Below, in pieces: positions 38,337-44,952 of a DNA stretch of 64,000 nucleotides. Source of the stretch: Nannochloris sp. 'desiccata' (taxonomy: Eukaryota; Chlorophyta; Trebouxiophyceae; Chlorellales; Chlorellaceae); NCBI GenBank assembly GCA_019044685.2, contig JAGTXX020000003.1, forward strand, positions 682,001 to 746,000. The letters are read 5' to 3'. The notes below the pieces were generated by a model. That model searched no databases. It had not been told where the DNA came from and was given only the letters and a program-made list of their open reading frames with translations. Position 1 is the first letter of the stretch, and each line of letters begins with the position of its first letter. The position numbers and the translations under genes were made by a program.

Positions 38337-41300
38337 TTACTTCCTATGATGCTCTTTAAATGCCTCATCAACCAATTGTCTCAACTCTCCAGCAGCCTGC
38401 GTCACACAGTCACTTCCTTGGCCTGTAGCAAATACCGCAGAGACCACTGCAATTCCCGCGGCCCCAACACTGACAACATCCTTCACCGCCGTCTTCCCCA
38501 CCCCTCCTATCGCCACCACAGGAATACTCACTGCCCGACACACCTCTTCAAACCCTTCTAGCCCGATAACTGAAGAATCTTTGGTTGAGGTAGAGAAAAT
38601 TGCACCAGCACCAAGATAATCAGCTCCCGCCGCTTCCGCCGCCAAGGCCTCTTCTTCAGTCTTAACTGAAACTCCAAGGATGCAGTCTGGGCCGAGTACT
38701 TTTCGAACTGCTTCTGCAGGGATATCATCTTGCCCTACATGCACTCCATCAGCTCCAATAGCAAGAGCAACATCGACTCTGTCATTAATTATTAAAGCTA
38801 CACCAGCAGCACGACACTGGGCCAACGCCGCTGCAGCTCTGGCAGTAAATTCTTTCCCTCCGCAGTTCTTTTCTCGAAGTTGAATTACGGTGGCCCCGCC
38901 TTTGATGGCGGCAGAGACAGCTTCAGGGACAGACAGACCGGAAGAATCGATCATTAACGGATCTGTGACTGCGTAGAGACGCAGATCAACTACATTAGGC
39001 ACACGGCGGGGAGGGGCTGAGGTTTGCTGCTGCTGTGATGCTACCTCTATAGTACCACTATCAATATTCCTAGTACTACTACTACTATCTTCAGTACCAC
39101 TAGGTACCGCATTTATAATTTGTTGTTCTTTCTGTTGTTTCTCAAGGTCTGTACGCCAGTCTGCGGTACGGTACGAGTGATTCATTGGTCTCTGTGGACC
39201 CGATCCCAGTGGCAACCCAACGGATCTCTCCAGTGCTCTCCATACATATTTCTTAGATGCACGGACAGCGGAAGGAATATCCGAGCCTTTTGCCATTTCT
39301 GCGGCAATGTAGGCGGCGAGTGTGCACCCGGTGCCGTGGGAATTATGGGTCTGAATATAAGGTGCTCTCATTTCATAAAAGTTTGTGCCGTCGTACAATA
39401 CATCGACCACTACCTCGGCTGCAGCACCCGCAAACCCAGTTGAAGCTTGCAATTGTGGTGCGCCAGCACCATTTCCACCACCTTCACCACCTCCAGCGCT
39501 ATGTCCGCTAAGACCTTCGCCATCAGCAATTGCATCTAATGGCAAATGTCCTCCTTTGACTAAGACCCACTGAGGACCCAAAGCATGCAAATCTTGCGCC
39601 GCCAGTTTCATACCTGCCACGTCAGCAATGGTCCTTCCGCCCAGAAGTACCGATGCCTCATGGACGTTGGGCGTCACAAGCATTGCCAAAGGGAATAGTC
39701 TTCCAGTGAGCGCTTGAGCTACGCCTGCCTCCGCTAAAACATCTCCGCTTGTAGCGACGAGGACTGGATCCACAATTAAAGCAGGGAATGTTCCCCGGGA
39801 AGATAATTCGTCAGCTACTGCTTCAACGACTTCTATAGAGGGCAGCATTCCTGTTTTAATACTGTCCGCTCCAATATCCTCTAAAACAGCTCTTATTTGA
39901 GATCTAATAAAGTCCGCAGGTGCACTGTGAATTTGAGACACGCCCTGTGTATTTTGAGCTGTCAATGCAGTGACAGCTGTGGCAGCAAACACACCTGCTG
40001 CTGCACATGCTTTAATATCAGCCTGAATCCCAGCACCACCTCCAGAATCTGATCCAGCGATGGACAACACACGTGGTGGATGGATATGGGCTTTAAGACC
40101 AGAAGCCAAGGCAGCGAGTTCTTGAGAAGTCTGTTTTCTGAGAAGTTGGCGTTTAAAGCTTGGACCAAATAGGAAAGCACGAATGTCATCCCATGTCATT
40201 GCTTCGTACAGAATAGGCACTTCATCGTACATACCACTGCTTGCAAAGACATCTTCTTGCTTTACTCCACCGTTATCTAAGCTTTCCTTGGTTGCATTCC
40301 GATCTATTGGGTAAGCGGCCAAATGCCGTATCGCCACACCCGCTGCAGAAGCAACTTGCCTTACCAACTGATTACTCCCCATCACAATACCTACATCTGC
40401 TGATATTAAAGCAGATAAGTCCGTCATAGAGTCTCCAATGTAAACTGAGACACCACCTTCTGCAGCGTGGCCTTCTGCTGCTATTCCCAATAACAGGTCA
40501 TCGAATACCCGGCCTTTATCCGCCGCACATTCACATCTTCGCTTCATTCCGCCTGTACTCACATCCCCAAAGTACTCCAACTCATTGCAATACACAACTA
40601 CAGCTCCAAGTGGAGGAGGTGCACCTTCAACCCCAGCTCTTGTGCCCCCAGCGCCGCCTGCAAGCACCACGGGAAGCCCCTGTTGTGATAACGCAGCTGC
40701 CACCATCTCCCCGCTCCAGTTGACCGAAACAACAACTGTAGGCACTCCAGAGTCCACAGCATGTTTTAATAAAGATAAACATCCAGGTCGTAAAGGCACA
40801 CTGGCACCAACCTCGGTTAATGCGCCTTTTTTGACTCCTGAAAGGATTTTCGACTCTATTACTACAGAGTTCATTTCTCGGTCAAATTCCGATATTCTAT
40901 CTAAAAAGTCACCTAACCAGGCCATATCGAACTCCTCAAGCTCGTCTTCTAATGGGGGTTCCGGTAAAATCTCATCGAGTAAATTTCCGCGTCTAGCAAG
41001 ATAGTTTTGGACCAGCCAGTGGAGTTTCTCTTCACCTTGAGCAAAAGCGGTGGCAGGGTCGGCTCCTTTTTTGGAGGCAGCTGTGATGGCTGCACGAGCA
41101 ATCATGCTGGTAGTGTCTTCTGATGTGCAGGTATCATCGAAATCTACGACCAGGAGGTTGATGGGGCGGTCAGGTGGGGTGTAGGGCTGGGAAGAAAAGA
41201 ACTCTACTTCAAGATTCATGGCGGAGCGGTAAATTTGGTGGAGTTTTTCTGCAGAAATAGGAAAATAAGGAGGAAACAAAGGTTCAGTGATATTGTTCTT

Positions 41301-43275
41301 AAGAGAATGTATGAAAATATTGCCATATTGACGTGTCCCTCCAAAGCTGAGAGAAAAATTGGAAGCAATGTGATCACCAGCAGGCGGGGAGCAAAAGTAA
41401 AAAAAAGGGTTCTAAATAAACCTTGAGGCTTTCTCCAAAGGAAAGATTTAACGCCAGAGGAGCGAGATTTAGGATAATGTGGAGCAGATGAAGAGAGATA
41501 TGCGAGCGACGTCCTCCCAGCTGGGTGTGCAAACCCTGCTGCTGCTGAAAAGAGGCAGCAGCGGTGAGGGATTGCAATCCGCTCCATCCAACGTGCAAAT
41601 TGAAAAAACATTCAGGCAAGATGGCCTGATTGACACCGTTAATGACCCATTTTTGCGAAAGAAAACAAATGGGAACAACATGACCGCAATTGTGACAAAA
41701 TAGGGCACCACTTGGAAATAATATTCGAAAGGAAGAAAAAACATTTTTTTAGGCAACAAAAAACGAGGTAGAATGCGTGCTAAAAACACAAATTATATGG
41801 TAAACTAAGAGGCGCTAATACTTCTTCCGAATAACAACAAACTTAATCTGCCAAAAACGTGCATGCACGCTTAATTGCACCATTAATCGCCATTGAATCT
41901 CAAGCTATATTTTGAAAAACCAACCAAAACAATGAAGCTTCTAACGCACAACATGCTTCAATGCCACATTAAAGGCGTCACCAATGGATACCCATTCAAA
42001 ATAGAGGCTGAAGAAGTTGAAACCAGAGAAGTTGATTATGATCCTGATTTTCTCCGCCACATTTACCCCAGAATACAATGGCCAGCGCTTCGAGAAGCTG
42101 CTGAAGCTCTCGGGGCAGGTTACCTGCCAGAAGCAGTGACTGAAGACATGCTTGAGAACGATGATGAGTTCCTCCAAGCGTTTCACCATGCTTTACTAGA
42201 AGTACATCTCCAGGAAGGCGCTCTGGTGTGTCCAGAAACTGGTAGAAAGTTCCTAGTAAACCAAGGGATTCCCAACCTCTTGCTCCAAGAAGATGAAGTT
42301 TAAAGAGCAACCTTAGAGATAGATACGCACCATAGGAAAACTAAAGGATATAGAAACTAGTCGAAGCAGCACCGAGAAAGACAGAAGAAGCCAGAGAGAG
42401 GGCTAAAAAACTAAAACTTGCATAAAGAAGTTACTGATTACCTTCTGCACCCCCTTTTTTCTTTCCTGCTGTTCTCAAATACTACTACACCATATAAGAC
42501 AACTTTTAACAAGCTTTTTAAAACCCTTTTCTTACCTGCCGAGTCGTGCAGTGCCAGTTCATTCAATAGTAATTCTGCTATTGCAGGCAACCTGATATAC
42601 GCCTGGCATTTATAGGTCTGTATCCACTCTGCATAGGCATATTCTTCAGATTCAGGTATAGAACGTGCTAATATACATCCTAGGTAGGCGTAGAGACGTA
42701 AACACGGGACTAAAGCAGCGAGTACCTCCGCGACGGTGGAATGTTGATCATCACAAATACTAAAAAGAAAGTTAATGTATTTAGATGTTGCTGGATGAGG
42801 GGATTGGTTTGTTTGAGAAGAAAGACCAACACCCCATTTGGCAGCGTAGCTATCGTGCATTTCTAGTTCTTCGAGGACGCCTTCTCGGAGTTGTTCCAAC
42901 TGAGAAGTGGCTGCAGCGGCTTTCGAAGGGGCGACGCCAGCTTTGTCTACTTTCGCAGCCGCAGCTTCATATCCACGGACAAAACTACGGAGGAAATATG
43001 CATCCTCTGCGATGTACTTCTGAAATGCGGGCTTGGGCAGAACGCCTTGTGCTAGAGCTTCCACGAAAGGATGGAAAAGGGCCGCAGAAGCAAGATCTTG
43101 GTTCGCAGCCCACAACTCCTGCATTTATACAGAAGGCAAGGTTAGACGACGCATGTAAAGTGGAAATCATGTATCATAAGCTAAGATATAAGCTAAGAGG
43201 GCGCCCGCACAGCTATGAAATGAGATATCTTACCGATGATATTCCGAAATTTCGGATTGGCACTCCGTCGGACAT
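38337..43275 (-). CDS. Four-domain thiamine enzyme: TenA - HAD phosphatase - ThiD - ThiE
   Basis: Three exons, 43275-43234, 43118-42536 and 41248-38337, with donors GTAAGA and GTAAGA and acceptors TGCAG and TGCAG, give 1,178 residues. TenA-like aminopyrimidine salvage domain, about residues 15-230: ELWAANQDLASAALFHPFVE, LVPCLRLYAYLG. The second splice joins NELALHDSA to EKLHQIYRSAMNLEVEFF, which restores the last TenA helix. HAD phosphatase as in plant TH2, about 235-560: LLVVDFDDTCTSEDT. ThiD HMP-P kinase, about 598-890: VLSIAGSDSGGGAGIQADIK and NSHGTGCTLAAYIAAEMAKG. ThiE TMP synthase, about 963-1170: YAVTDPLMIDSSGL, ATVIQLREKN and DGVHVGQDDIPAEAV. The protein could take salvaged HMP through HMP-PP and TMP to thiamine. 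No transit peptide is obvious. The central intron (42535-41249) contains TRM112 on the opposite strand. Domain calls are firm; the single-transcript claim is inferred. Confidence 0.88.
41932..42303 (+). CDS. TRM112: TRM112, methyltransferase activator subunit, nested in an intron
   Basis: TRM112 is a small zinc-binding partner that activates several tRNA, rRNA and eRF1 methyltransferases (Trm9/ALKBH8, Trm11, Bud23, Mtq2). A single exon encodes 123 residues from ATG 41932. The start MKLLTHNMLQCHIKGVTNGY carries the family signature MLxC. The helical middle and the end QEGALVCPETGRKFLVNQGI with NLLL match well. Only the N-terminal Cys and the VCPETG Cys are present, so the zinc site is reduced as in many plant and algal members. 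The gene lies entirely within the 1,287-base intron of the thiamine enzyme, on the other strand. It must be transcribed antisense to that pre-mRNA. Confidence 0.95.
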   Translation: MKLLTHNMLQCHIKGVTNGYPFKIEAEEVETREVDYDPDFLRHIYPRIQWPALREAAEALGAGYLPEAVTEDMLENDDEFLQAFHHALLEVHLQEGALVCPETGRKFLVNQGIPNLLLQEDEV

Positions 43276-43641
43276 TGCTTGTTGCTTGAATGGAGATCCA
43301 CTTAAAGCCTCATCAGTCTCAAGTATAATGTATTCCTCTTCCATTATGTATGTTTAAATAAACTGCCAAGGCAGCCAATGGGGCGAGAAGTGGCGGGGTA
43401 GGCGGAAGAACTGGTTAAGACTGGGGACACCGCGCCCTTTAAGTTGGCGAATTTAGATCCACATAGATCTGCTGAATTCTCCACCTCTTCAATCTCTACA
43501 TAAACTTATAAGAATACTAACGTAACCCTATCTGAGGGTGCAGCTTGCGGTTGCCTGTGACTAATTTAAAATATAATTCGAATTCCTTCCGTTGTAGCAA
43601 TCCCATTCCAACCACAAACACGCAGCTTGGAAGCATCTATA
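43276..43641. promoter_or_regulatory. Divergent promoter region of the thiamine enzyme
   Basis: This lies between the thiamine enzyme (minus) and the alpha/beta hydrolase (plus). Thiamine genes in algae are often controlled by a TPP riboswitch. I looked for the conserved CTGAGA and ACCTGA blocks: a CTGAGG appears at 43531, but no matching partner or fold was found, so no riboswitch is called. Confidence 0.35.
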
Positions 43642-44952
43642 ATGATTAAATGCGCATTTTTGCACTCTGTTAGTTCCCTAGCTACCTCAGCAACAGCAGC
43701 AGTAACGTCTGGATCTCGATCTTCAATTTCCCGCTCTCGCTCTGGTTCCGGCTGCTTCCGCTCTGCTGCCCCTCCTCAGTCTTCCCTCAACAGACGAGAC
43801 CTTTTAGGAGCTGCAAGCGCTCTCACAGCAGCAACAACTGTTAACCCTGTCCTCTCAGCAGGCGCAGCAGCTGGACCGTCCTCTTCTTCATCGGCTCCCA
43901 TTGTCACCGCCGCCTCCACCTCGTCGGCTGCCCCTTCAACTTCAATTACTTCCCCTCCTCCCACAGAAGCAGATCCTCACGGCAGATACTCTGAACGTCT
44001 GAAACTCCTCCCCAAAGGATGGAACACATGGAAATGGCGGAATCACAACATCAATTGGCTTACAGCTGGAGAAAAAGGCCCTGTTGTCGTTTTCATTCAT
44101 GGGTTTGGGGCTTCTGTGTATCATTGGCGCTATCTAGTCCCTGAATTATCAAAGACCTGCCGAGTCTATGCTTTAGATGTGCTTGGCTTTGGATGGTCTG
44201 ATAAAGCTATTGTAGATTACGACGGGTATGAGATTTGGTCTGATCAGATTGCAGACTTTATTAAAGAAATAGTGCAGCCTGGGTGCTCAAATGATGGCAA
44301 TGGTGGTGCAGAGAAGGCTATTTTAGTTGGAAATTCTCTCGGAGGGTACAATAGCTTATCCACCGCCGCAGCCCATCCTGAATTAGTGAAAGGGGTTGTC
44401 CTACTCAACGCAGCAGGGAGATTTGAAGATCCTGCAGAGGTGGGAGAGGGAGATGAAGACGCTGCTCCAGCTGCCGATGCCGCCGCAGCCGCTTCTCAAG
44501 TGTCCTTATTACAGAGGGTTACTACCCAAGTAAGCACTGCAATGAAACGTGCTGTTGTCTCTGCATCGTTCATTTTCACGAAACAACCTGCCAGGGTGAA
44601 ACAGGTCCTGGGTCAAGTGTATGTGGATAAGACGAATATCGATGATGATTTGGTGGATTCAATTCTGATCCCGGCACAAGATCCTGCTGCCAGTGAAGTG
44701 TTTTATCGTGTAATTACAGCACGAGGTACCCCTGTGAATAGGTTATTGGATAGATTAGAAAACAAGATGCCTTTGTTGTTGTTATGGGGAAGCGAAGATC
44801 CCTGGTGTGTACCGGCACGAGCGACTCAGATAGAAAATCACTATCCAAAGGCGGAGAGGATTAATATCTTGAGTGGGCATTGTCCGCATGATGATACGCC
44901 AGGCCTTGTTGCTGGACCGTTGGAGAAGTGGGTGCAAGGGCTGGAGACCTGA
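43642..44952 (+). CDS. Alpha/beta hydrolase with plastid and Tat-like lumen targeting signals
   Basis: A single exon encodes 436 residues from the first ATG in frame. Residues 1-50 are Ser/Ala/Arg-rich without acids, like a plastid transit peptide. Then NRRDLLGAASALTAATTVNP and LSAGAAA give a twin arginine, a hydrophobic core and an AxA-type cleavage site, as in Tat-dependent thylakoid-lumen signals. A Ser/Thr/Pro linker precedes the hydrolase fold (about 140-436). The oxyanion segment is FIHGFGASVYHWRYLVPEL, the nucleophile elbow is LVGNSLGGYNSL (Ser), the acid region is LLLWGSEDPWC and the His is in ILSGHCPHDDTP. The pattern is close to pheophytinase-like and related plastid hydrolases. A 25-residue Glu/Asp/Ala insertion occurs in the cap. 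The substrate is unknown; a chlorophyll or lipid ester is plausible. Confidence 0.86.
   Translation: MIKCAFLHSVSSLATSATAAVTSGSRSSISRSRSGSGCFRSAAPPQSSLNRRDLLGAASALTAATTVNPVLSAGAAAGPSSSSSAPIVTAASTSSAAPSTSITSPPPTEADPHGRYSERLKLLPKGWNTWKWRNHNINWLTAGEKGPVVVFIHGFGASVYHWRYLVPELSKTCRVYALDVLGFGWSDKAIVDYDGYEIWSDQIADFIKEIVQPGCSNDGNGGAEKAILVGNSLGGYNSLSTAAAHPELVKGVVLLNAAGRFEDPAEVGEGDEDAAPAADAAAAASQVSLLQRVTTQVSTAMKRAVVSASFIFTKQPARVKQVLGQVYVDKTNIDDDLVDSILIPAQDPAASEVFYRVITARGTPVNRLLDRLENKMPLLLLWGSEDPWCVPARATQIENHYPKAERINILSGHCPHDDTPGLVAGPLEKWVQGLET

Follow-up and report, generated by a model that had tools for sequence, protein, structure and literature searches.

A probable four-domain thiamin fusion gene (TenA-HAD-ThiD-ThiE) in the green alga Nannochloris sp. 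'desiccata', with TRM112 nested in its second intron

We studied a thiamin-related locus of Nannochloris sp. 'desiccata' within a stretch of 64,000 nucleotides (in the following the window; contig JAGTXX020000003.1, positions 682,001 to 746,000 of the forward strand, assembly GCA_019044685.2). All positions without contig label refer to this window. The locus holds a minus-strand gene, whose three exons encode the domains TenA, HAD, ThiD and ThiE, as well as a second gene on the opposite strand of intron 2. Respective features are given below, where P0001 denotes the top match of our protein search.

43234..43275, minus strand: exon 1, start codon and first 14 codons; the start is that of P0001
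43119..43233, minus strand: intron 1, 115 bases, GTAAG...CAG
42536..43118, minus strand: exon 2, TenA (thiaminase II) domain minus its last helix, with Asp53, Tyr128, Cys153, Tyr157 and Tyr183 (Pfam TENA_THI-4, PF03070, 92 bits)
41249..42535, minus strand: intron 2, 1,287 bases, GTAAG...CAG, 3' end pyrimidine-rich
41932..42303, plus strand: TRM112 gene (methyltransferase activator subunit), a single open frame of 123 codons, antisense within intron 2
38337..41248, minus strand: exon 3, last TenA helix, HAD, ThiD, ThiE and stop
41193..41248, minus strand: exon 3 share of the last TenA helix (model helix 208-227), Glu222 at 41210-41208, heading the HAD exon
40275..41162, minus strand: HAD phosphatase domain, residues about 238-533, DFDDT ... 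GDSMTD
39162..40079, minus strand: ThiD domain, kinase of hydroxymethylpyrimidine (HMP) and its phosphate (HMP-P), residues about 599-904
38349..38993, minus strand: ThiE (thiamin phosphate synthase) domain, residues about 961-1175

The exons (43275-43234, 43118-42536 and 41248-38337) join to 3,537 bases, i.e., 1,178 codons plus stop in frame, within a genomic span of 4,939 bases. A preceding interpretation made from the DNA letters alone (the sequence-only reading) had proposed three such exons joined in phase, and its coordinates agree with ours. It had also stated that the second splice completes the last TenA helix before leading into HAD, which is borne out: the model helix spans the junction and Glu222 is encoded in exon 3. 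That is, intron 2 splits TenA where its last helix starts, such that a gene split at this point would lose the conserved Glu222. An in-frame ATG further upstream (43344) would add an acidic extension of 23 residues; P0001 begins at 43275. The poly(A) signal AATAAA is present twice 3' of the stop. Since no Rfam family reaches its threshold within the window, we see no thiamin pyrophosphate (TPP) riboswitch on the gene.

P0001 comprises 1,178 amino acids at 100% identity and has 17 member sequences with source tag 'lgn'; by script comparison it is letter-for-letter equal to the spliced translation. Its cluster lists one contig, with a longest size of 3,850 bases. As these encode all 1,178 residues, while the gene with both introns spans 4,939 bases, the contig is not genomic DNA of the locus and probably represents a spliced transcript. 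We regard the fusion as a real gene that is very probably transcribed and conserved. The single polypeptide of order TenA-HAD-ThiD-ThiE, as proposed in the sequence-only reading, is supported by the identical P0001 as well as by 29 further four-domain relatives among the 120 matches listed (see below).

The alternative named there was a pair of genes separated by the 1.3-kb intron. With TRM112 included, the layout would be a TenA gene that stops within the intron, TRM112 on the opposite strand and a separate HAD-ThiD-ThiE gene. The location of TRM112 between the TenA and HAD parts would fit such a layout, and the exon 2 frame is readable for about 32 codons into intron 2 before a stop. Furthermore, the public records of Chlorella vulgaris and Parachlorella begin at HAD, while TenA is listed separately for Micractinium. 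P0001, however, spans both junctions, and TenA alone would be left without its last helix and the catalytic residue therein. The first ATG of the exon 3 open frame encodes Met219, a residue inside that helix. Finally, P0016, a Chlorella-type protein with 81% identity to the C. vulgaris entry, runs uninterrupted from a TenA-exon-like end via the last helix into HAD. Two genes are thus very improbable. We also rejected a plastid-targeted form with its start in intron 2 and no additional splicing, since the open frame offers no ATG before Met219.

For the exon 3 frame, Pfam reports HAD (PF12710, 30.1 bits vs. cut-off 27), Phos_pyr_kin (269 bits) and TMP-TENI (202 bits). Based on NCBIfam, ThiD exceeds the cut-off of the curated HMP-P kinase model (TIGR00097, 274.8 vs. 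204.95 bits) and ThiE that of the curated thiE model (TIGR00693, 195.7 vs. 145.1 bits). The HAD motifs DxDxT and GDxxxD are both present (D244, D246, T248, D481, D485). The VIA-align list of the model search has rows for ThiD, ThiE, TenA and pyridoxal kinase and is silent on the HAD fold.

The helical bundle of TenA is complete, including the last helix with its catalytic Glu222, which we take to correspond to Glu205. When aligned to 1yaf, Cys153 falls into the Cys135 column of Bacillus subtilis TenA and Tyr128 into that of Tyr112. TenA_C and TenA_E are told apart by presence or absence of the active-site Cys (PMC5635689, accessible part). Given Cys153 in this column, the domain is by sequence of the cysteine type TenA_C, and the label TenA_E used in the sequence-only reading is wrong.

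Residue conservation was assessed in an alignment of 39 rows (A1), which covers 25 of the 30 four-domain proteins plus 14 further sequences. Asp53, Tyr128, Cys153, Tyr157 and Tyr183 are kept in all 25 four-domain rows and Glu222 in 24/25. Phe56 (21/25, 4 further with Tyr) and His102 (22/25) are weaker. The tested catalytic columns of HAD, ThiD and ThiE are kept in 24-25 of the 25 rows, except Ser383 (21, plus 4 Thr) and Ser1069 (23, plus 2 Thr). These numbers bear on the question whether one or more domains, namely TenA or HAD, are inactive relics within a real fusion. Both score below ThiD and ThiE, and TenA reaches only 83 bits with the salvage_TenA model of NCBIfam (cut-off 130). Nevertheless, the tested catalytic columns are kept in the window protein and, at most sites, in nearly all four-domain rows, which renders relic domains rather improbable.

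Next, we turn to the spread of the fusion. The protein search gave 485 matches over threshold, of which the best 120 are listed and were labelled by a search with the window protein's own four domains. HAD-ThiD-ThiE is most frequent (47/120), followed by TenA-HAD-ThiD-ThiE (32), ThiE-ThiD (12), ThiE-ThiD-TenA (9), ThiD-ThiE (8), TenA-HAD-ThiD (6), TenA-ThiD-ThiE and ThiD-ThiE-TenA (2 each) as well as HAD-ThiD-ThiE-TenA and a doubled ThiD-ThiE (1 each). Two of the 32 four-domain entries hold only the last TenA helix, which leaves 30 (counting P0001) that retain half of TenA or more. The holders include [Myrmecia] bisecta, Coccomyxa subellipsoidea, Apatococcus, Elliptochloris, Raphidocelis, Scenedesmus, Ostreobium, Haematococcus, Chlamydomonas incerta, Chlamydomonas schloesseri, Gonium, Volvox, Pleodorina and Edaphochlamys; the 24 aligned relatives show 36-50% identity to the window protein. 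The domain search for the same order in other algae, suggested along with the sequence-only reading, thus succeeded, and its wording that "this alga has merged" the domains was right about the fusion itself and too narrow about its holders. By domain labels, the four-domain fusion is spread over core green algae.

Many of the HAD-ThiD-ThiE entries are probably gene models cut at an intron. Side observations concern entries with a different layout. Of two sister copies in Ostreobium (P0030, P0045), one carries TenA and the other does not, the latter having a different N-terminus. The TenA-less Ostreobium and Trebouxia (P0035, P0036, P0042) entries keep the last-helix motif and have N-termini that look transit-peptide-like by eye; here, the enzyme may be split between two compartments. 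P0092 (1,416 amino acids, ncbi record) is a permuted HAD-ThiD-ThiE-TenA according to the window domains, while Pfam reports ThiD, ThiE and TenA only.

Placing intron 2 inside one gene, as the sequence-only reading did, is in agreement with our data; the TRM112 gene within this intron had been missed. Its product of about 120 residues matches PF03966 (33.4 bits vs. cut-off 22) and shows 89% identity to P0152. In a six-frame search of the 21.55-Mb genome with scoring of the best candidates, it is the only PF03966 match. None of three poly(A) patterns was found 3' of TRM112.

To judge from shared contigs and locus tags, TRM112 appears to lie within the same intron in Chlorella, Micractinium and Parachlorella. 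Seven thiamin-gene entries and four TenA entries have exactly the contig size of a TRM112 entry. As control, we counted near misses (1-20 bases off) and found 0 for fusion-TRM112 pairs, 0 for TenA-TRM112 pairs and 2 for the TenA-fusion comparison. Given the zero counts for the two TRM112 comparisons, chance was rejected as cause of the equal sizes; the TenA-fusion pair P0143/P0010 (both 6,310 bases) may be coincidence. Locus tags of thiamin gene and TRM112 are neighbours in Chlorella vulgaris (D9Q98_009110/009111), Parachlorella (N2152v2_002887/002888) and Micractinium tetrahymenae (ABPG75_007060/007061), and the two genes are g146/g147 on scaffold16 of a eukprot set. The TenA similarity of P0122, P0123, P0124 and P0126 reaches the end of exon 2 and continues with Gly-Lys, which equals the window's intron read-through. 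P0125 reads Gly-Glu at this position, and P0127 and P0128 end with Lys-Gly-Lys, their BLAST similarity stopping at residue 194. Chlorella-type public annotations appear to cut the thiamin gene at intron 2.

The same records are relevant for the idea that the locus yields several products, i.e., the fusion, a HAD-ThiD-ThiE form starting in or after intron 2 and a truncated TenA, with the nested TRM112 influencing their ratio. In records of Micractinium conductrix, HAD-ThiD-ThiE and TenA are labelled as isoforms C and D of a single named enzyme, on equal-sized contigs, and a nested antisense gene would bring its own promoter into the intron. For the alga studied here, however, no short-form transcript was seen, and the listed short forms may be gene models or genomic gene calls. 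We thus consider several products unlikely, though less so than relic domains.

When did TRM112 enter the intron? We computed a ThiD-ThiE tree (42 rows, 506 columns, quick method) and mapped the TRM112 position. All 9 rows with co-located TRM112 are inside one 16-row clade (SH-aLRT 95), and all 6 rows with TRM112 on another contig are outside of it, such that one change suffices between the labels "co-located" and "elsewhere". Two of the latter rows (UWO 241, Symbiochloris) are three-domain entries, and Raphidocelis was scored "elsewhere" without locus tags. Haematococcus is absent from the tree. Sanguina, Scenedesmus and Trebouxia were scored unknown, because their TRM112 is listed from a different assembly or species or might have a second copy. 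When the nested label is compared with all other rows, 6 changes are needed (7/500 shuffles as low), which is due to the 27 rows of unknown state. Most likely, a single entry of TRM112 into the intron followed the fusion and took place in the lineage on the Chlorella side.

To place the fusion within its pathway, we consider the remaining genome. It holds ThiC (contig C4) and Thi4 (C2), and a profile search found no second TenA. Three other matches of PF08543 (ThiD family) exist, two of them over the family cut-off. Both were rejected as additional ThiD, since by their best NCBIfam scores (under model cut-offs) the one on C2 is ribokinase-like and the one at C3:1444292 pyridoxal-kinase-like; the third (C7) is under the family cut-off. 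As additional ThiE, we rejected a PF02581 match on C11 (L008:1165-2688). It shares its frame with a Dynamin_N GTPase domain and is probably no thiamin enzyme; presumably, this open reading frame resembles the plant plastid protein FZL. The fusion would therefore be the alga's only ThiD, ThiE and TenA, and with no other ThiD or ThiE detected by these searches it would be needed for de novo thiamin synthesis.

No plastid transit peptide is visible by eye from the start used or from the upstream ATG. In 22/25 four-domain rows, the TenA match begins at most 24 residues from the N-terminus. Given no apparent transit peptide, the fusion protein may act, and thiamin assembly may lie, outside the plastid.

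Two further observations were made. On the plus strand of the window, an alpha/beta hydrolase frame (43570-44952; PF00561, 91.5 bits) is divergent from the thiamin gene. Outside of the window, C5:582161-582277 (plus strand; L013:1501-1617) is a full-length match to the TPP riboswitch aptamer with CUGAGA core. It scores 38.7 bits (E 2.4e-5), i.e., under the Rfam cut-off of 54.3. Of 761 genome candidates 49 were scored, and no other RF00059 match among these reaches E 0.001. It is located upstream of a bZIP-type open reading frame (L013:1981-2637; PF07716, 24.4 bits), just before a possible intron of the 5' untranslated region.

Compared to known systems, the window gene is a variant of known thiamin fusions, plus a nested gene. 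The yeast protein THI20 combines ThiD and TenA, and fungal THI6 combines ThiE and ThiM. Both are multifunctional and share domains with the window protein (the model search gave matches to 3rm5 and 3nl6), but their pairings and orders differ and HAD is missing. Bacterial ThiE-ThiD-TenA and Cafeteria ThiD-ThiE-TenA have three of the four domains on one chain, yet in different order and without matched HAD; the bacterial-type model PRK09517 of NCBIfam matches the window protein under cut-off. Plant TH2/PALE1 (TenA-HAD, phosphatase of thiamin monophosphate, TMP) shows both domains in the same order, as does plant TH1 for ThiD-ThiE (plant rows P0086, P0089). In contrast to the window protein, which carries all four domains on one chain without apparent targeting peptide, TH2 is a separate cytosolic and/or mitochondrial protein and TH1 a separate plastid protein. 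Accessible parts of the literature describe rice PALE1 as targeting peptide, TenA and HAD (PMC7868968), and place TH1 in plastids, TH2 in cytosol or mitochondria and a putative transit peptide on rice TH1 (PMC8331165, PMC11169455). Other green algae, e.g., [Myrmecia] bisecta (WJX72_003863), Volvox and Chlamydomonas incerta, have the identical order. For the four comparable green-algal relatives (Myrmecia, Raphidocelis, Elliptochloris, Pleodorina), TRM112 is found on a contig of different size.

Topical searches of an open-licence library gave no description of the TenA-HAD-ThiD-ThiE order; subscription papers may mention it. The accessible parts of PMC5635689, PMC8331165, PMC4921024, PMC4260697, PMC9544697, PMC10470507, PMC7868968, PMC3476827 and PMC11169455 do not mention it. 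Therein, genes of Chlamydomonas and Chlorella NC64A are placed under the row 'thiD+thiE/Thi6/TenI' (PMC3476827), C. reinhardtii and V. carteri are given complete classical pathways with neither 'fusion' nor 'fused' in the main text (PMC4260697), a TenA-HAD fusion is given as 'unpublished' (PMC4921024), and the algae covered are Micromonas and Cyanidioschyzon (PMC11169455).

Taken together, we consider it highly likely that the locus is an intron-containing nuclear gene, whose four-domain product acts as plant TH2 (TenA-HAD) and TH1 (ThiD-ThiE) combined. The relatives of this gene point to a trebouxiophyte as its source. From the respective families, TenA_C would free HMP from an aminomethyl-pyrimidine breakdown product and ThiD would phosphorylate HMP and HMP-P to the diphosphate (HMP-PP). 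ThiE would couple HMP-PP with thiazole phosphate to TMP, from which HAD would remove the phosphate to yield thiamin.

Several points weigh against this interpretation. The RNA status of P0001 is deduced from its 3,850-base contig and source tag. The HAD score is weak, being close to its Pfam cut-off, and a PDB sequence search with this domain gave no match below E 0.1; its role as TMP phosphatase would follow from that of plant TH2 (PMC7868968, accessible part). The genome also encodes one PF06888 phosphatase, which might act on TMP too. Plants have a TMP-acting phosphatase of this type; within the piece examined at the algal locus, no frame of at least 400 closed codons was found. Longer N-termini occur in 3/25 four-domain rows (P0026, P0029, P0062). 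Among the listed matches, the TenA-HAD-ThiD and TenA-ThiD-ThiE entries lack a domain each, and some algae may truly lack TenA: 35 of the 47 HAD-ThiD-ThiE entries keep a last-helix-like motif before HAD and 12 do not, based on a loose pattern chosen by eye and without control. Finally, the position of TRM112 is unknown in 27/42 tree rows.

A broader scenario would combine both genes. Core green algae would have relocated thiamin assembly from the plastid via a cytosolic TH2 and a TH1 stripped of its transit peptide, with salvage, kinase, coupling and dephosphorylation steps on one chain. On the Chlorella side, the trapped, essential antisense TRM112 would allow the cell to alternate between the complete salvage enzyme and a HAD-ThiD-ThiE form. 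We regard this combination as speculative and doubtful.

For annotation, this means that a green-algal protein recorded as 'TH1' or 'thiamine phosphate synthase' can carry all four domains; Chlorella-type models appear cut at the intron housing TRM112. TRM112 itself is an example of a gene that took up residence in an intron after the host gene had been fused, and this event can be placed on a tree. Plants distribute thiamin synthesis among plastid, cytosol and mitochondrion, and the movement of intermediates is an open question. With salvage, HMP-P phosphorylation, TMP synthesis and TMP dephosphorylation on a single chain, intermediates could be channelled within one compartment, and both aspects become directly testable in algae that are easy to handle in the laboratory.

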